A stretch of DNA of 64,000 nt from Amaricoccus macauensis (GTDB taxonomy: Bacteria; Pseudomonadota; Alphaproteobacteria; Rhodobacterales; Rhodobacteraceae): contig NZ_JACHFM010000002.1 in assembly GCF_014201905.1 (NCBI RefSeq), positions 620,001 to 684,000 of the forward strand, in the 5' to 3' direction. The translations under genes and the position numbers were made by a program. A model generated the notes under the pieces. That model searched no databases. It worked only from the letters and a program-made list of their open reading frames with translations, and was not told where the DNA came from. Positions 28,955-38,479 of this stretch are shown here, in pieces. The number at the start of each line of letters is the position of its first letter. The first letter of the stretch is position 1.

Positions 28955-29057
28955 ACTCCCGTTAGAGAGTAGCAGGGTCTGATGGCGGCCGGGTTTGTCG
29001 CCATTGCGGTTTGAGGGAGCCGCCGCCCTGCTCGAGCGAGTGGGGGAGTGTGGTACT

Positions 29058-32000
29058 TTGAACAAGATCGTTGACGAGAATGCCATCATCGAGGGGCGTG
29101 CTCCGAAGTCCTATTGGGATGTCGAGCACAGCAACCGGATCGAGGGCTTTGCCACCGACATGAGCGTCAATGCAGGGACGCGGGTGGACTTCAAGATCAA
29201 CGTCAACGACGTTGCTGGCAGCGATTACAAGGTTGAGATATTTCGCCTCGGCTACTACGGCGGCGATGGCGCCCGCGAGGTTGCCGAGTGGACCAACACC
29301 AACGCCACCGTGCAGGTGGACGCGCTCTATGACGCGACCCGCGGGATGGTGGACGCCGGCAACTGGTCGGTGACCGACAGCTGGCAGGTGCCCGACGACG
29401 CGGTCTCGGGCGTCTACCTCGCGAGGTTGCAGCGGCTCGATGCCAACGGCAACGCGATCGACGGCGCGGTCAACCAGATCCCGTTCATCGTCCGCAATGA
29501 CGGCGAGAAGCACGACATCGTGCTGCAGACCTCCGACACCACCTGGCAGGCCTACAACGGCTGGGGCGGCAACAACGGCCATGTGGGCGCCAACCTCTAC
29601 GGCGATCCGAGCGGCCGGGTCGACTGGGACCCGATCGAGGGGGCTGGAGCCCATTCGCAGGACCGCGCCTACGCTGTCAGCTACAATCGCCCGCTCATCA
29701 CGGACACCGGCGAGAGCACCGCGTCCGGGCCGCAGGACTATCTCTTTGGCGCGGACTATGCCGCGATCCACTGGCTCGAAAAGAACGGCTACGACGTCTC
29801 CTACATCTCCGGCGTCGATACCGATCGGCTGGGCGCGTCCTATCTCGAGAACTACAAGGCCTTCCTCTCCGTCGGCCATGACGAGTACTGGTCCGGGGGC
29901 CAGCGCGCCAACGTCGAGGCGGCGCGCGACGCAGGCGTGAACCTGCTCTTCTGGAGCGGCAACGAAGTCTACTGGAAGACCCGCTGGGAGACCTCGATCA
30001 GCGCCGACGGCACCGAGTACCGCACGCTCGTCTGCTACAAGGAAACCCTCGCGGTCGCCGACCCGAACGCGGGGCCGGAGGACTATTACAACCTCGATCC
30101 CAGCGATATCTGGACCGGCACCTGGCGCGATGTCCGTTTCCACGGCAATCCGCTCGCCGGTGGCGGCAACCCGGCCGACGTCGATCCGATCACCGGGCTC
30201 TGCCCCTATTGCCACTGCGGCGAGAACGCGCTGACCGGCCAGCTCTTCGGGCCGGACGGCACCGGCCAGTTCGGCGGCGCGCTCGATGTCCCGGCGGAAT
30301 ACGCCGGTCTCCGGGTCTGGCGGGATACCACCGTCGCGAACGGCGGCAAGCTCGACATCGCGCCCGGTATCCTTGGCTACGAGTGGGACACCTCGCCCGA
30401 TGATCTGCTTCGGCCCGCCGGCCTCGTCAAGCTTTCGGGCACGACGATCCCGTGGGACGGCATCCTGATCGACCAAGGCAACAACATCTCCCCCGGCATG
30501 GCCACCCACAACCTGTCGCTCTACCGCACCGAGAGCGGTTCCCTGGTCTTCGGCGCCGGCACCACCTTCTGGAGCTGGGGCCTGAGCGACATGCACGACA
30601 GCTCGCCCTACGGCGCGCAGATCGAGAATACCGACCTGCAGCAGTTCACCATCAACATGTTCGCCGACATGGGGATCCAGCCGGGCGTCACCGACGCGAT
30701 GCTGATCTCCCAGGGGCTGAAGCGGGCGAGCGCGTCGGATGATCACGTGGCGGCGACCGCCTCCATCGACGAGTCCCAGGGGCACCTCGCCGCGCTGTCG
30801 CCGGTGACGATCACCGGCACCGCGACCGATGACGACCACAACGCCCAGACCCGGGACGGCAAGGTCGCGGTGGTCGAGGTCTCGGTCGACGGAGGGACCA
30901 CGTGGCGGGTGGCGAGCACCACCGACGGTTGGGCGACCTGGAGCTACACCTGGCAGCCGGCGAGCGAGGGCAACTACACCGTGCTTGCCCGCGCGATTGA
31001 CGACAGTCTCAACATCTCGAGCATTGTCTCGGATCGCCAGACCCTCGCGGTCGGCGCGCCCGATTACTACAGCTTCTTCAACGGCACGGCGCCGAAGAGC
31101 GACGCCGCGACGCTGCACAACGACGGTGCGGCGGTCGAGCTCGGCATGCGCTTCAGCGTTGACCAGGCGGGTCAGGTGACGGAACTGAAGTACTGGCGCT
31201 CGAGCCTCGACGCCGGCGACACCGACGTCCGGGAAGGGCACCTCTGGCGCGCCGACGGGACGCTTCTCGGCACGGTCCAGTTCAAGTCGTCGGCGGGCGA
31301 CGCCGGCTGGCAGACCGCAACGCTCGCCACGCCTGTCGCGCTGCAGGCTGGCGTGGAATACATCGTCTCCTATCGCACAGCCGACAACTACGTGGCTTCG
31401 AACGGCTTCTTCGGGGCGGATCGTGAGCAGGCGTTCGACGGGCTCGACAACGACTCGTTCTGGGGCCCCTACGGCGTCGTCCGCTCACCGATGAGCGGCA
31501 CCGGTGGCGGCAACGGCGTCTATGGCTATGGCACAGGCATGCCGAATGCGAGCTGGGCGTCGTCGAACTACTGGGTGGATCTCACCTTCGATCCGGCCGA
31601 TCCGGCAACCAATCATGCGCCGGAGATCACGTCGCCGGTGAGCTTCACCGTGGCGGAAAACCGCGCGAGCGTCGGCCTCGTGACCGCGACGGACGCGGAC
31701 GGCAACGCGATCACCTACGGGATCAGCGGCGGCGCCGACGCGGCCCGGTTCAAGATCAACGCCCAGACGGGCCAGCTCTCCTTCATCCAGACGCCGAATT
31801 TCGAGCTGCCGATGGATGCCAATGGCGACAACCTCTACCAGGTGAGGGTGACCGCCAGCGACGGCATTGCCGCCGCGGTGACAAAGGCTCTGACGATCGG
31901 TGTCACCGACGTCGACGAACGGGGGTACATCTCGCACGCGTTCCAGGCTGGCGCGGCGCCCACGACGGTCGAGACGGGCGACCCGACCGACTATGAGCTC

Positions 32001-33770
32001 GGGATGCGGTTCCAGTCGAACGCCTCGGGCCACGTCACCGAACTTCGCTATTTCCGCGGCGCCGCGGACGCCAACGACAGCGATACCCGCACGCTCACGC
32101 TCTGGACCGCGAGCGGCGAGAGACTCGGGCAGGCGACCATCACCTCGGCTGTCGGCGCCACCGGCTGGCAGACGGCGACGCTGGCGACGGCGATCGGGCT
32201 TTCGGCGAACACCACTTACGTCGTCTCCTACGGGACCACCGACAACTACGCCTATACCGGCGGCTGGTTCGGCACGGAGCACCCGAGCAACGACGGCGTG
32301 CTTTCGGGGCTCGCCGGCGTATTCTCGGCGGGGCCGGGCTCGTTTCCGACCATGGCCTATGGCTCGACGAACTACTGGGTGGATGTCACCTTCCGGCAGA
32401 GCCTGAACGGTGCGCCGAGGATCGCTTCCATCGTCGCGCCTGCGACGAACGAGGATGCCGCCGCCGTGGCGATCAATCTGCTCGCAGGCGCGAGCGATCC
32501 CGACGGCGACACGTTGAGCCTGGCGGGGCCGGTTGCCGTCACGTCGTCCAACAGCAGCCGGACCGTGGCCTTCACGGTTTCGGCGGCGGGCGTCCTCACG
32601 CTCAATCCCGGCCAGTTCGGTGATCTTGCCGGCGGCCAGTCGGAGACCGTGACCATCAGCTACGCGATCACCGATGGCCAGCATGCGGGCGTGGCCAATA
32701 CCGCGACGATCGTCATCGAGGGCCGTGATGAGGCGGGGCTGGTCCTGACCGGCAACTACTGGCGGAACTCCCTCACCGGGACCGCCGGCAATGACCTGAT
32801 CCGCGGCCTGCAAAGCGACGACACCTTGCTCGGCAACGGCGGCAACGACACGCTCGACGGCGGTACCGGCAGGGACCGGATCGACGGTGGTGCCGGCAAC
32901 GATCTCATCCTGGTGCGCACGACCGAGATGCAGGGTGACACGATCGCCGGCGGCACTGGCACCGATACGCTGAAGATCGACGGGTCCTCCAATCTGGTGG
33001 TGAGCACGCTGAGCGGCGTCAGCGGCGTCGAAATCCTCGACGGCTCAGGCAGGGGTCTGCAGGGCACGTCCTACTCCGACGTCCTCAGCCTCGCCGGCTT
33101 CGAGACGGTGACGGGCCTCACCGGTGTCCATGGTCTCGCCGGCAACGACAGTCTGGTCGGGAGTGCCAGCGCGGACACGCTCGACGGCGGGAGTGGCATC
33201 GATACCGTGCGGGGCGGGGCCGGCAACGACACCATCATGATCCGCGGCAATAATGCCCAAAGGGACCTGATGGATGGCGGAGAGGGCCAGGACCGCATCG
33301 TCATCAACCCGGCCGGCGGGGCCGTCACCATCGAGCACTCGAGCCGGATTTCCGGGATCGAGACGATCGATGGCCAGGGCGCCGGCATTCAGGGCACGAG
33401 CGGCGCGAACCTGCTCGACTTCTCGAAGGTCGACCTCGTCAACGTCGCGCGCATCAACGGCCACTACGGCTGGGACACCCTCGCGGGCGGCACCGGCAAC
33501 GACACCCTGACCGGTGGTTCGGGGAATGACACGTTCCTCTTCCATTCCGGCGACGTGTCGGGAGACGACCTGATCACCGACTTCGACGCGAGCGGCAACG
33601 ACGTGATCAATCTCCGGGGCTATTCGGAGACCACGTATCTCGCTCAGGCCGTGAGCTTCGACGCGCTCGGGGCGCTCATTGATCTCTCCGAGATCGGCGG
33701 GCACGGTACGATCCGGCTGGCCGGGGTCTCGACACTGTCGTTCGGACAGGAGGATTTCATCTTCAGCTGA
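29058..33770 (+). CDS. Giant secreted protein: DMFase-like domain, two DUF4082, cadherin-like, RTX tail
   Basis: The 1570-residue product is modular. Residues about 20-560 resemble the large (beta) subunit of N,N-dimethylformamidase: RLGYYGGDGAREVA, QTSDTTWQAYNGWGG, YAVSYNRPL, KNGYDVSYISGVD, SVGHDEYWSGGQR, LLFWSGNEVYWKTRW and GYEWDTSPDD. An Ig-like segment follows (about 575-670). Then come a DUF4082 module (about 680-845, PDYYSFFNGTAPKSD), a cadherin-like module (about 850-950), a second DUF4082 module (about 955-1110), another cadherin-like stretch and RTX repeats from about 1230, ending in an RTX tail. There is no signal peptide, so type I secretion is likely. TTG 29058 is chosen because GGGGGAG lies 9 bases upstream; the frame opens at TTG 28995. 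An amide-hydrolase or carbohydrate-related activity is possible but unproven. Confidence 0.82.
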   Translation: MNKIVDENAIIEGRAPKSYWDVEHSNRIEGFATDMSVNAGTRVDFKINVNDVAGSDYKVEIFRLGYYGGDGAREVAEWTNTNATVQVDALYDATRGMVDAGNWSVTDSWQVPDDAVSGVYLARLQRLDANGNAIDGAVNQIPFIVRNDGEKHDIVLQTSDTTWQAYNGWGGNNGHVGANLYGDPSGRVDWDPIEGAGAHSQDRAYAVSYNRPLITDTGESTASGPQDYLFGADYAAIHWLEKNGYDVSYISGVDTDRLGASYLENYKAFLSVGHDEYWSGGQRANVEAARDAGVNLLFWSGNEVYWKTRWETSISADGTEYRTLVCYKETLAVADPNAGPEDYYNLDPSDIWTGTWRDVRFHGNPLAGGGNPADVDPITGLCPYCHCGENALTGQLFGPDGTGQFGGALDVPAEYAGLRVWRDTTVANGGKLDIAPGILGYEWDTSPDDLLRPAGLVKLSGTTIPWDGILIDQGNNISPGMATHNLSLYRTESGSLVFGAGTTFWSWGLSDMHDSSPYGAQIENTDLQQFTINMFADMGIQPGVTDAMLISQGLKRASASDDHVAATASIDESQGHLAALSPVTITGTATDDDHNAQTRDGKVAVVEVSVDGGTTWRVASTTDGWATWSYTWQPASEGNYTVLARAIDDSLNISSIVSDRQTLAVGAPDYYSFFNGTAPKSDAATLHNDGAAVELGMRFSVDQAGQVTELKYWRSSLDAGDTDVREGHLWRADGTLLGTVQFKSSAGDAGWQTATLATPVALQAGVEYIVSYRTADNYVASNGFFGADREQAFDGLDNDSFWGPYGVVRSPMSGTGGGNGVYGYGTGMPNASWASSNYWVDLTFDPADPATNHAPEITSPVSFTVAENRASVGLVTATDADGNAITYGISGGADAARFKINAQTGQLSFIQTPNFELPMDANGDNLYQVRVTASDGIAAAVTKALTIGVTDVDERGYISHAFQAGAAPTTVETGDPTDYELGMRFQSNASGHVTELRYFRGAADANDSDTRTLTLWTASGERLGQATITSAVGATGWQTATLATAIGLSANTTYVVSYGTTDNYAYTGGWFGTEHPSNDGVLSGLAGVFSAGPGSFPTMAYGSTNYWVDVTFRQSLNGAPRIASIVAPATNEDAAAVAINLLAGASDPDGDTLSLAGPVAVTSSNSSRTVAFTVSAAGVLTLNPGQFGDLAGGQSETVTISYAITDGQHAGVANTATIVIEGRDEAGLVLTGNYWRNSLTGTAGNDLIRGLQSDDTLLGNGGNDTLDGGTGRDRIDGGAGNDLILVRTTEMQGDTIAGGTGTDTLKIDGSSNLVVSTLSGVSGVEILDGSGRGLQGTSYSDVLSLAGFETVTGLTGVHGLAGNDSLVGSASADTLDGGSGIDTVRGGAGNDTIMIRGNNAQRDLMDGGEGQDRIVINPAGGAVTIEHSSRISGIETIDGQGAGIQGTSGANLLDFSKVDLVNVARINGHYGWDTLAGGTGNDTLTGGSGNDTFLFHSGDVSGDDLITDFDASGNDVINLRGYSETTYLAQAVSFDALGALIDLSEIGGHGTIRLAGVSTLSFGQEDFIFS

Positions 33771-36185: not shown

Positions 36186-36499
36186 GCGAGGTTCTGGCGC
36201 GGCTCTGGGCGACGGTCGAGGCGCGGGCGGGTGCCGACCCGGCGAGTTCGCACACCGCGGCGATGCTCGCGAAGGGCCGGGGGAAATGCGCCGAGAAGTT
36301 CGGGGAGGAGGCCGTCGAGGCGATCGTCGCGGCGGCCTCGGGCGATGCGGCGGGGCTGACCCACGAAGCCGCCGACGTGCTCTATCACCTTCAGGTCATG
36401 CTGAAGGCCGCCGGCGTGCCCTGGGACGCGGTGCTCACGGAGCTCGAACGGCGCGAGGGGCGCTCGGGGATCGCGGAGAAGGCGAGCCGCCCGCGCTGA
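36182..36499 (+). CDS. hisE: HisE, phosphoribosyl-ATP pyrophosphatase
   Basis: HisE hydrolyses PR-ATP to PR-AMP, the second step of histidine synthesis. The 105-residue all-helical MazG-like protein has the metal-binding pattern [17 protein letters not shown], then [13 protein letters not shown]. It is a stand-alone HisE, not fused to HisI. Its ATG overlaps the hisF stop. The transcript probably ends before the structured RNAs at 36588, though I saw no clear terminator. Confidence 0.95.
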
Positions 36500-36587
36500 C
36501 GGCAGGGCGCCCGGCAGGCCCGACGCGGTCGTGCTCGCGCGCCTCAGACAGTTCTTGCATATTGCAGGAAGACGTGGCACATGATGC

Positions 36588-36660
36588 GTGTGCTCGTGGC
36601 CGTAGGGCGCGGTTCCTTCGATTCGAATCGCAAACCGCACCCGCCTCTTTCCCGAGCACA
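36588..36660 (+). ncRNA. Candidate Y RNA 1 (Ro-binding small RNA)
   Basis: The 8-bp closing stem is TGTGCTCG (36589-36596) with CGAGCACA (36653-36660). Inside are a 1x7 internal loop (T opposite TCTTTCC), GGC:GCC pairs, a CGTA bulge, then GGG-C-GCGGTT paired with AACCGC-A-CCC. The apical loop contains TTCGAATC, like a tRNA T-loop, recalling the tRNA-mimic part of YrlA-type Y RNAs. The same bulge, internal loop and blocks GTGGCCGTAGGG, CGGTTNCTTCG and CGCCTCWTTCCC recur in the RNA that abuts it. It sits directly upstream of the Ro60 ortholog gene. The fold was drawn by eye; exact ends and strand are inferred. Confidence 0.7.
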
Positions 36661-36752
36661 TCGGAGCGCCGGGTGGCCGTAGGGATCGGTTACTTCGCAT
36701 CAACTGCAGAGCGCCTACGTGCCGGTCTCGCCTCATTCCCCCGGCGCTCCGA
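36661..36752 (+). ncRNA. Candidate Y RNA 2 (Ro-binding small RNA)
   Basis: A perfect 13-bp closing stem pairs TCGGAGCGCCGGG (36661-36673) with CCCGGCGCTCCGA (36740-36752). The interior repeats RNA 1: T opposite TCATTCC, GGC:GCC, CGTA bulge, then GGGATCGG paired with CCGGTCTC (8 pairs, two of them G-U). The 5' block aligns with RNA 1 at 22 of 25 positions at a 77-base offset. The closing stems differ in sequence but both pair perfectly, which is compensatory evidence for structure. The 32-base apical loop is longer than in RNA 1. It could be a separate RNA or the second module of one tandem transcript. Confidence 0.72.
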
Positions 36753-36764
36753 TGTGGACGGCCA

Positions 36765-36784
36765 CGGCTTCTCCAAAGGAGCCG
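36765..36784 (+). promoter_or_regulatory. Hairpin covering the rsr ribosome-binding site
   Basis: CGG-CTT-CTCC pairs with GGAG-CCG around AAA (7 bp with a 3-base bulge). The 3' arm contains the AGGAG that precedes the rsr ATG at 36788. It could limit translation. Small and predicted by eye. Confidence 0.35.
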
Positions 36785-36787
36785 AAG

Positions 36788-38146
36788 ATGCGACTGAACA
36801 CTGCTGCCGGCTTCGCCACCCACGAGGGCGGCCGCGCCGCGCCCCTGACCCCGATGCAGGCGCTGCGCCGGTCGGTCATGTCCTGCCTGCTCTGGGAGCG
36901 GGAATTCTACGAGGACGGCGAGGAGATCGCCGGCCGGATCGCGCGCCTCGCGGCGGCGGTGCCGGCGGCCGATCTCGCCGCGCTGGCGGTCGAGGTGCGC
37001 GTGGAGGCGAAGCTCCGCCACGCGCCGCTCCTGCTCCTGTCCGTCCTTGCCGAGACCGGTCATGGCCGGATGGTCGCGGACGCGATTGCCGAAACCATCG
37101 CGCGAGCCGACGAGATGGGCGAGTTCCTCACGATCCATGCGGCGCGCAAGGGCGTCTTGCCCGGGGGCCTGAAGGCGAAGGGCGTTCTGACCAAGCAGGT
37201 CCGCCTCGGTCTCGCGCGGGCGCTCGGCAAGTTCGACGCCTACCAGCTCGCCAAGTATGACCGGGACGCCGCCGTGAAGATCCGCGACGTGATCCGCCTC
37301 GCCCGGCCCCGCCCGGCCGATGCGGCGCAATCGGCGCTCTGGAAGGCGGCGGTCGAGCGGTCGCTGCCGGTGCCCGACACCTGGGAGGTGGCGCTCTCGG
37401 GTGGTGCGGACAAGCGCGAGACCTTCACCCGGCTGCTGGAGGAGCGGAAGCTTGGCTACCTCGCGTTGCTCCGCAATCTGCGCAACATGGCGGAGGCGGG
37501 CGTGGATCCGGGCCTGATGCGGGAGGCGATCATTGCCCGCCGTGGTGCGCAGAACGTGCTGCCCTTCCGCTATGTGGCGGCGGCGCGGGCCTGTCCGCAG
37601 ATGGAGCCGGCGCTCGACGAGGCGCTGTCGGAGGCCGTGCTCGAATCGCCGGTGCTGCCGGGCCGGACCGTGGTTCTGGTGGACGTGTCGGGGTCGATGG
37701 AGGTGCCCCTGTCGCTGCGCTCCGACCTGACACGCCTCGATGCAGCGGCGACGCTCGCCTCTGTCATCCACGGCGAGCGCCGCGTGTTCTCGTTCGCGTC
37801 GGGAAACGCCCGGTACCGGGAGGACATCTGGAACGGGAAGCCGATTCTCGTGGAGGTTCCGCCGCGGCTCGGCATGGCCGGTGTCGATGCGATCGACACG
37901 TCGCAGTTCCACGGCGGCACGATGCTGGGGCAGGCGGTGCTGGAGGCGAACGCCATCCCGCATGACCGGCTGATCGTCATCACCGACGAGCAGAGCGAGG
38001 ACCCGGTGCCCGAGCCCGTCGCCCGGCACGCCTACGTCATCAACGTCGCCTCGGCGCGCCATGGCGTCGGCTATGGCCGCTGGACCCACATCGACGGGTT
38101 CAGCGAGACCGTCCTGCGCTGGATCGGCGCGTTCGAGCGCGCATGA
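36788..38146 (+). CDS. rsr: Ro60 ortholog Rsr: TROVE and von Willebrand A RNA-binding protein
   Basis: Bacterial Ro60 proteins are HEAT-repeat rings that bind Y RNAs and misfolded RNA and guide exonucleases such as PNPase. The 452-residue product has a TROVE domain (about 10-285): MQALRRSVMSCLLWEREFYEDG, RHAPLLLLSVLAETG, GVLTKQVRLGLARALGKFDAYQLAKY and LRNLRNMAEAGVDPGLM. The vWA domain begins with a MIDAS motif DVSGSM at residue 299, then HGGTMLGQAV and IVITDEQSED. ATG 36788 follows AAAGGAG and begins the family-like N-terminus. Upstream are two tandem Y-like RNAs; its stop overlaps a small downstream gene. Shorter than animal Ro60, as usual in bacteria. No rtcBA/RtcR is in the window. Confidence 0.93.
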   Translation: MRLNTAAGFATHEGGRAAPLTPMQALRRSVMSCLLWEREFYEDGEEIAGRIARLAAAVPAADLAALAVEVRVEAKLRHAPLLLLSVLAETGHGRMVADAIAETIARADEMGEFLTIHAARKGVLPGGLKAKGVLTKQVRLGLARALGKFDAYQLAKYDRDAAVKIRDVIRLARPRPADAAQSALWKAAVERSLPVPDTWEVALSGGADKRETFTRLLEERKLGYLALLRNLRNMAEAGVDPGLMREAIIARRGAQNVLPFRYVAAARACPQMEPALDEALSEAVLESPVLPGRTVVLVDVSGSMEVPLSLRSDLTRLDAAATLASVIHGERRVFSFASGNARYREDIWNGKPILVEVPPRLGMAGVDAIDTSQFHGGTMLGQAVLEANAIPHDRLIVITDEQSEDPVPEPVARHAYVINVASARHGVGYGRWTHIDGFSETVLRWIGAFERA

Positions 38147-38349
38147 CGGCGGAGGAACTCCGCCAGGCCGGACTCCGCTTGTTCGGCCCGGAGCGCGGCT
38201 GGAAGGCGCGGCTCGCCCGCGCCCTCAGGTCCGAGGACTCGTCGGTCTCGCGCTGGCTGAGCGGCCAGATCGCCGTTCCCGGACCCGTCGCCGCCGCCGT
38301 CGACTGCTGGCTCCGGCACGGACCGCCGGATGAGCGCGGGAACGGGTGA
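38143..38349 (+). CDS. Small helix-turn-helix-like protein coupled to rsr
   Basis: The 68-residue product starts at an ATG overlapping the rsr TGA (ATGA), indicating translational coupling. The sequence EELRQAGLRLFGPERGWKAR, then ARALRSEDSSVSRWLSGQIAVP, resembles the helix-turn-helix of small Cro/XRE-like proteins (recognition region SSVSRWLSG). A helical tail AAAVDCWLRHG follows. It could be a DNA-binding regulator or an Rsr partner; no known family was assigned. Its coupling to rsr suggests a related job. Confidence 0.65.
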   Translation: MTAEELRQAGLRLFGPERGWKARLARALRSEDSSVSRWLSGQIAVPGPVAAAVDCWLRHGPPDERGNG

Positions 38350-38404
38350 GCGGTCCTGACCGACGCAGCGGGGACGTGCTCAGCCTCGTTTTGTCTGGAA
38401 GGGA

Positions 38405-38479
38405 TGGTGGGCGATGCAAGGATCGAACTTGCGACATCTTCGATGTGAACGAAGCGCTCTACCGCTGAGCTAATCGCCC
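38405..38479 (-). tRNA. tRNA-Val (anticodon CAC)
   Basis: Read on the minus strand, the acceptor GGGCGAT pairs with ATCGCCC, with encoded CCA at the 3' end. The D arm contains AGCTCAGCGGTAGAGC. The anticodon stem CTTCG/CGAAG holds loop TTCACAT, giving anticodon CAC (codon GTG). The T arm GCAAGTTCGATCCTTGC is intact. Length 75 with CCA. Confidence 0.95.

Follow-up and report, generated by a model that had tools for sequence, protein, structure and literature searches.

A Ro60 and Y RNA locus of Amaricoccus macauensis with a candidate autoregulatory helix-turn-helix gene and a promoter palindrome

Organization of the rsr locus

The stretch of DNA analysed here (the window, 64,000 nucleotides of contig NZ_JACHFM010000002.1 of Amaricoccus macauensis) carries rsr, a gene for a Ro60 orthologue, in the plus-strand order palindrome, Y1, Y2, AAAGGAG, rsr (ATG at 36788) and hth, where Y1 and Y2 are predicted Y RNAs and hth is a small gene for a helix-turn-helix (HTH) protein. 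The palindrome, TTCTTGCATATTGCAGGAA (36552 to 36570, no strand assigned), is the proposed operator and has 8-bp half-sites that match at 7 of 8 positions around a 3-bp spacer. Y1 begins 17 nucleotides (nt) on (36588 to 36661, plus strand) and is a short Y RNA lacking a tRNA-like insert, and Y2 (36657 to 36756, plus strand) is a Y RNA with a 17-bp outer stem, both assigned from fold, descriptor and alignment. The AAAGGAG at 36775 to 36781 of the plus strand reads as the likely ribosome-binding site of rsr, which itself spans 36788 to 38146 on the plus strand and encodes 452 amino acids. The hth gene (38143 to 38349, plus strand, 68 codons) overlaps the rsr stop codon with its start codon as ATGA, and from its homologs and predicted fold is proposed to encode an autoregulator. 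Of these features we consider the promoter palindrome, absent from a preliminary description of this DNA, to be the main new point.

Assignment of rsr rests on profile and structure matches. Its product matches PF05731 (TROVE) in a Pfam profile search with an E-value of 1e-10, the best stretch being residues 193-250, and it aligns over residues 7-406 with the solved TROVE proteins 9l5y and 9kop (E 1.1e-19). The same Pfam search gave no separate match to the von Willebrand factor A (vWA) domain; the product carries a DVSGS motif, which we take to be that of a metal ion-dependent adhesion site, and combines TROVE with a vWA-like C-terminal part, the make-up of Ro60/Rsr proteins. It is the sole TROVE match in its own genome.

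Two tandem Y RNAs upstream of rsr

The preliminary description had placed two abutting hairpins directly upstream of a TROVE-type rsr, and both fold as it described. Relative to shuffled sequences, the folding z-scores are -3.3 for 36588-36659 and -3.9 for 36660-36752, and with flanks included -2.5 for Y1 (36580-36665) and -5.4 for Y2 with its longer stem (36655-36757). The block GTGGCCGTAGGG occurs exactly twice on the plus strand of the window, at 36596 and 36673. Closing stems of 8 and 13 bp had been given, of which the first holds for Y1 (8 Watson-Crick pairs, 36589-36596 with 36653-36660; 9 counting one G-U) and the second is too short, the outer stem of Y2 being made of 17 perfect pairs (36657-36673 with 36740-36756). 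Because the CACAT at 36657-36661 is common to the outer stems of Y1 and Y2, the two full stems are mutually exclusive; which hairpin obtains the common bases would depend, we infer, on trimming once the transcript is cleaved or on co-transcriptional order.

No Rfam family matched over Y1 or Y2 at the gathering score, a negative to be read with the limit that Rfam's holding of a bacterial Y RNA model was not checked. The lone match with E-values up to 10, to the microRNA family MIR7486, was judged spurious, the query being a long GC-rich hairpin. Relatives of the hairpins were sought upstream of related rsr genes by means of a descriptor comprising an outer helix, a short strand opposite a 6-9 nt loop, GGY:GCC or similar pairing, a bulge of 3-5 nt, an inner helix and a YWTC motif. 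To write it, the upstream sequence of 17 of 80 related rsr loci fetched (81 with the window) was read. The first version found 140 matches within 1000 nt upstream of rsr, in 64 of the 81 loci; the opposite strand (77,867 nt) and both strands of rsr (104,577 nt each) were free of matches. A looser version, applied to 1200 nt upstream in 100 distinct loci, gave 191 matches in 85 of them and eight in the controls (2 on the upstream opposite strand, 0 and 6 on the plus and minus strands of rsr, and 0 on either strand downstream). As the descriptor itself demands pairing, the evidence lies in the specificity of strand and position and not in covariation as such. Each locus with a match has 1-5 tandem Y-like RNAs, some of them about 900 nt upstream of rsr.

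Fifteen of the 100 loci had no descriptor match, among them short contigs or loci with little upstream sequence, and L022 and L023. In these last two, Bradyrhizobium rsr loci of another lineage, three GCCGTA[GA] blocks missed by the descriptor can be seen by eye upstream, and the counts of Y RNAs are thus lower bounds.

In alignment, the GG, bulge, TTC and 3' blocks are common to the window RNAs and their relatives, and the counterpart of Y1 in L009, L019 and L011 is the first Y RNA there, which is likewise short. Both window RNAs lie beside a Ro60 orthologue and have, in predicted structure, paired ends and a conserved lower stem with bulge and internal loop. The earlier interpretation of the hairpins as Y RNAs has thus come through a comparative test, since related rsr loci carry the same blocks and paired stems. 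Although no name for them comes from Rfam, this comparison makes bacterial Y RNAs the best reading of the window hairpins, and it places them in a family of predicted RNAs that precede most of the related rsr genes examined. The 191 predicted RNAs, unnamed by Rfam in the window and 8 loci searched, would support a proper family model.

Rfam searches of the 8 related loci returned no Y RNA family, and all 8 matches were to the tRNA family. Seven tRNA-family matches lie upstream of rsr in L025 (L025:76-1659); at least the last, at 1589-1659, forms part of a predicted Y RNA that looks like a whole tRNA in its 5' half.

Absence of the tRNA-like insert from the window RNAs

By loose motifs, 102 of the 191 RNAs have both a T-arm and a D-arm, 36 only a T-arm, 14 only a D-arm, and 39 neither. 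The same scan found neither motif in Y1 or Y2, and the window is among 9 of 85 loci in which no detected Y RNA has a T-arm. Y2 aligns with the second RNA of L009, L019 and L011 but without the T-arm and acceptor stem; it keeps AGAGCGCC, which resembles the D-arm region, and the 3' block. Neither window RNA thus carries the insert of T-, D- and acceptor arms that makes a tRNA mimic of the YrlA type, and the tRNA-mimic part of the Y RNA picture drawn in the preliminary description does not apply here. The rsr nearest to that of the window is L011, from a metagenome-assembled genome of Bauldia (support 97/96), and its second RNA has the full insert; loss of the insert in the window lineage is the simplest reading of the predicted structures. 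The missing mimic offers a comparison that could separate gate from tether.

The small HTH gene

Coupling of rsr to a small HTH gene, noted earlier for the window, proved real and conserved: in the 98 bacterial loci that could be scored (2 of the 100 could not), an HTH gene follows rsr in 29. Within Caulobacteraceae, the 18 near-complete rsr genes of the main group (L095-L112) are all followed by it, as is the fragment L113, and none was found after the second paralogue, L116. When five HTH-bearing genomes were queried with one HTH protein, four had the rsr-linked copy only and the fifth, Pelagibius, had a second, distant copy. This copy (L117:3108-3293) lies away from rsr, and no palindrome was found within the 4.5 kb examined around it.

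Family profiles for the protein are weak and Cro/YdaS/HTH_31-like, and NCBIfam gave nothing above its cut-offs. The P22 Cro profile matched 10 of 12 members (best E 0.00018), and the phage CII profile weakly matched 7 of 12 (best E 0.028). The AlphaFold2 model of the 68-residue protein has four helices and a mean confidence (pLDDT) of 92. Its nearest solved folds include HigA2, Aca2, P22 c2 and 434 Cro, with query TM-scores of 0.59-0.71. Assignment to the HTH fold thus combines a confident predicted model with weak E-values for relatives.

A palindrome in the promoters of HTH-bearing loci

When upstream sequences of related loci were read, a palindrome was noticed ahead of the first Y RNA. A strict search placed the palindrome in 9 of 12 HTH loci and in L024, a locus whose contig terminates directly behind rsr, and in none of 68 others. 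The final pattern, R2, comprises five variants and was built after viewing HTH-bearing loci including that of the window; it matches 28 of the 29 bacterial loci that have an HTH gene and none of the 69 that lack one. Control sequence, coding and downstream, gave no R2 match in 347,330 nt. A 19-bp symmetry rule was rejected (23/29 versus 6/69); its 6 matches in loci without the gene were judged from their sequence to be GC-rich acceptor-stem hairpins inside predicted Bradyrhizobium Y RNAs and not promoter sites. LexA was set aside as the reader of the palindrome, since the alphaproteobacterial LexA box is a direct repeat.

Many loci have two or three R2 sites, mostly shortly before a Y RNA core. 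The distance from site to core is 12-79 nt for 59 of 61 sites, and 3 further sites have no downstream core; 44 of the 61 lie 30-75 nt before a core, compared with 21 percent of random points. Downstream of the sites, -10-like hexamers can be seen by eye. Six loci without the HTH gene (L020-L023, L025 and L116) are placed between HTH loci by the bacterial tree, in part through weak forks; all lack R2, with the caveat for L116 that the rsr of L112 in the same genome has both HTH gene and palindrome.

The only HTH-bearing bacterial locus without R2, L113, has a related site at its edge. It consists of a C-terminal rsr fragment with an HTH match behind it and an operator-like TTGCGTAATGCAA directly in front, and is possibly a decayed locus that kept regulator and operator. 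L116 is the second rsr of genome G518, which also has the HTH-linked L112; several Y-like RNAs can be read upstream of L116, which has neither HTH gene nor palindrome, and a promoter-like stretch, TTTTTAATTGACAGT, is present both before and after the gene.

Viral loci and the history of the association

R2 was frozen before viral contigs were searched. Thirty-seven viral rsr loci were fetched, 35 of them with enough flank, and R2 was found in 4 of 8 loci with an HTH gene near rsr and in none of 27 without. Searching viral sequences with the HTH alignment alone gave 18 loci, and because 16 of these also carry rsr, the HTH family is largely an rsr partner in the viral collection. In this second set, R2 is present in 8 of the 13 loci (out of 16) that have usable upstream sequence. 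One locus counted as lacking the gene, L157, lies on the same contig as L202, where the HTH gene is further away, so the fair count without the gene is 0/26 and not 0/27. Combined, 12 of the 21 viral loci that have the HTH gene carry R2, compared with 0 of the 26 that lack it (Fisher test on 12/9 versus 0/27, 4e-6, with kinship ignored); L158/L159 and L198/L200 are near copies. On these counts, HTH gene and promoter palindrome are associated with one another in bacterial as well as viral contigs.

Among the viral HTH loci without R2, other palindromes can be seen by eye in L153, L163, L164, L171 and L202, and L190 has a site with one mismatch. No palindrome was found in L196, L198 (with only 222 nt upstream) or L203.

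Trees of rsr bear on whether the association is simply inherited. On a mixed tree of 50 hand-chosen rows (23 bacterial and 27 viral rsr) the HTH label requires 10 changes, at least 5 of them forced by supported branches, and the palindrome label 9, at least 6 of them forced; all 20 rows with the palindrome are rows with the HTH gene. Because the two labels need 10 and 9 changes, HTH gene and palindrome are not one inherited block. On a 97-row bacterial tree the HTH label changes 4 times, and supported branches force only 1 change.

A possible operator code

The half-sites seem to vary with the residue that follows a conserved Asp in the HTH protein. All 25 bacterial loci with Arg at this position and a site carry TTGCA (8 of them also TTGCG), a count in which most loci are close kin; at L113, which also has Arg, no site was counted. 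GTGCA accompanies Gly in L009 and Thr in L019. The window protein has Asp at this position and its site has TTGCA with a TGCAG partner. In viral loci with a site, Arg goes with TTGCA (L155, L191-L195 and L197), Gly with GTGCA (L154) and Thr with GTGCA (L158 and L159), and Gln (L205) and Tyr (L200) are found with TTGCA too. L196 (Gly), L202 (Thr), and L190 and L203 (Arg) have no R2 site, and the divergent helices of L163, L164 and L171 accompany palindromes that are divergent by eye. The rule was formulated after the first viral set, and the second tests it for Arg only (6/6 with a site), TTGCA being the commonest class. We hypothesize that the residue after the conserved Asp sets the outer base of the operator, with Arg specifying TTGCA and Gly or Thr GTGCA.

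A proposed self-regulated operon and its alternatives

The HTH gene lies in an operon whose own proposed promoter region holds the palindrome, and the two co-occur, if not universally; this co-occurrence suggests a self-controlled RNA-processing module. The locus is in our view probably a self-regulated Ro60/Y RNA operon, made up of operator and promoter, Y1, Y2, rsr and hth. A single Y1-Y2-rsr-hth transcript would start just upstream of Y1, and both hairpins would be cut or trimmed from its leader and then stabilised by Rsr, which would bind their bulged lower stems. Binding Rsr through a bulged lower stem is what bacterial Y RNAs are established to do. The two window RNAs would gate the Rsr ring and, because they have no tRNA-like insert, would be poorer tethers for polynucleotide phosphorylase (PNPase) or tRNA enzymes than the RNAs of many relatives. 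The HTH protein would be produced from the rsr mRNA by translational coupling, and its dimer, on the TGCA-N3-TGCA palindrome over the promoter, would repress the operon until a signal relieved repression, whereupon Rsr and its Y RNAs would be made together. Aca and HigA proteins are autorepressors of their own operons.

Several observations weigh against autoregulation. A consensus scan of 36450-38420 gave neither a sigma-70 promoter nor a terminator. R2 had to be widened by a variant to take in the window site, which is itself imperfect; furthermore, the figure of 28/29 is inflated because R2 was assembled after the HTH-bearing bacterial loci had been seen. The 29 HTH loci are for the most part kin of Caulobacterales type (the bacterial tree includes 28 of them, of which 24 form one branch), and 9 of the 21 viral HTH loci lack R2, so the pattern is not universal. 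The window genome has 19 strand matches to the site with one mismatch, compared with 6 for a reversed control, and other targets are therefore possible. Finally, the Foldseek E-values of the HTH fold matches are weak, the best being 0.046.

Some of these points also fit an alternative that we regard as unlikely, in which the HTH protein does not regulate this promoter, and gene and palindrome are parts of one mobile block with another factor binding the site. Physical linkage to the same rsr would allow gene and palindrome to move as a unit, the Caulobacteraceae loci are close kin, and further near-matches of the site exist in the window genome. Against a shared block stand the 9 to 10 changes per label on the mixed tree, where the HTH gene is present in every row that has the palindrome, and the absence of the site from rsr loci without the gene (0/69 bacterial, 0/26 viral); moreover, the half-site seems to track the recognition helix.

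Autorepression is likewise preferred to the idea, improbable to our minds, that the HTH protein activates the operon or is an RNA-binding partner within the Ro ribonucleoprotein. Several sites overlap the presumed -35, as in L013, where by eye TTGTTGCAT stands before TCTAGA, a position open to activator and repressor alike, and there is the weak likeness of 7 of the 12 members to CII, which is an activator. In L009, L019 and L164, however, the palindrome lies by eye between -35-like and -10-like hexamers, as is typical of repressors, P22 Cro is a better profile match than CII, and the closest folds include the repressors HigA2, Aca2, P22 c2 and 434 Cro. It is also quite improbable that the hairpins are leader structures regulating rsr translation or mRNA stability (riboregulator or attenuator) and not free Y RNAs: they do lie within the rsr leader, with no terminator found in between, have bases of their outer stems in common and end 31 nt ahead of the rsr start codon, but in relatives the RNAs come in 1-5 tandem copies, many contain a tRNA-like insert and some lie about 900 nt upstream of rsr, several loci carry two or three palindromes, most of them close before a Y RNA core, and the ribosome-binding site lies outside the hairpin structures.

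Taking the candidate operator code together with the self-regulated operon, we lean slightly towards a wider picture in which Alphaproteobacteria and viruses share a mobile Ro60/Y RNA module whose dedicated repressor would read, through its helix, the outer base of TGCA-N3-TGCA. Phage-style autorepression would then replace RtcR and supply Y RNA on demand, and the window Y RNAs would be stripped down to the Rsr-binding gate.

Relation to known Ro60 systems

In the literature surveyed, control of a Ro60/Y RNA operon has been worked out for the rsr-yrl-rtc operon of Salmonella under RtcR, and Ro60/TROVE proteins are described from jumbo phages (PMC7790460, PMC4726728, PMC8394870, PMC7765460, PMC7824862 and PMC8533742 as a group). 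Like Salmonella Rsr with YrlA and YrlB (rsr-yrlBA-rtcBA), the window rsr adjoins Y RNAs with paired ends, and many relatives of the window RNAs have the T-arm and D-arm motifs of the tRNA-like domain described for YrlA in the surveyed part of PMC8394870. Unlike in Salmonella, the window Y RNAs precede rsr and lack a tRNA-like insert, a small HTH gene comes after rsr, the proposed HTH regulator holding the place of RtcR, and no RtcB was found. The last point extends to the whole genome, as far as RtcB is concerned, an earlier remark that no rtcBA is present and that the locus differs from the enterobacterial arrangement: PF01139 has no match in the window genome, which is 99 percent complete (RtcR was not searched for), and with rtcB found in neither operon nor genome the locus does not fit the rsr-yrl-rtc class in this respect. 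Because no RtcB was found, this genome is unlikely to repair RNA by the route known from Salmonella.

Rsr with a Y RNA, presumed to gate and tether, also recalls the Rsr-Y RNA-PNPase machine (RYPER) of Deinococcus radiodurans, as outlined in the part of PMC4726728 surveyed. Deinococcus Rsr is induced by mitomycin C and is not under the XRE repressor DdrO (PMC8533742), and the HTH gene and palindrome of the window have no counterpart mentioned for Deinococcus in the surveyed parts of these two papers. With the autorepressors Aca2 and HigA the window protein shares a small HTH fold, a gene inside the proposed target operon and a palindrome at the promoter; it differs in its cargo, Ro60 and Y RNAs, and is only 17-30 percent identical to its fold matches. 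The titles and abstract openings surveyed name no such HTH regulator of a Ro60 operon, the main bacterial Y RNA papers lying outside the survey, so that an earlier report is possible. A dedicated regulator with a readable operator would provide a direct handle on the system, as deletion of the 68-codon gene could reveal what Ro60 does under constitutive production. The presence of the module on viral contigs raises the question of how a phage benefits from an RNA-decay ring.

Genomic setting

Among 394 genomes of the window's family, its own included, this type of rsr occurs in the window genome only; 6 other genomes of the family have rsr matches at 26-39 percent identity. Acquisition of the locus, perhaps by phage, is plausible. 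No clean empty site was found in the same genus, and in 2 of the 4 same-genus loci with hisE, this gene is followed by tRNA-Arg. A sigma-54 promoter at TGGCAC (36575-36580) was considered and rejected, as GC follows GG by just 8 nt and sigma-54 needs a distance of about 10 nt. The neighbours of the locus are hisE and a DUF805 gene (Pfam), tRNA-Val and, by eye, further his genes and lon; they do not look like prophage. The tRNA-Val gene lies at 38405-38479 on the minus strand, its 3' end pointing towards the rsr cassette, and the 3' end of a tRNA gene is a common landing site of mobile DNA. Elsewhere in the window, a 1591-codon open reading frame at 28995-33770 has a C-terminal part that resembles, by eye, the calcium-binding repeats of secreted proteins.

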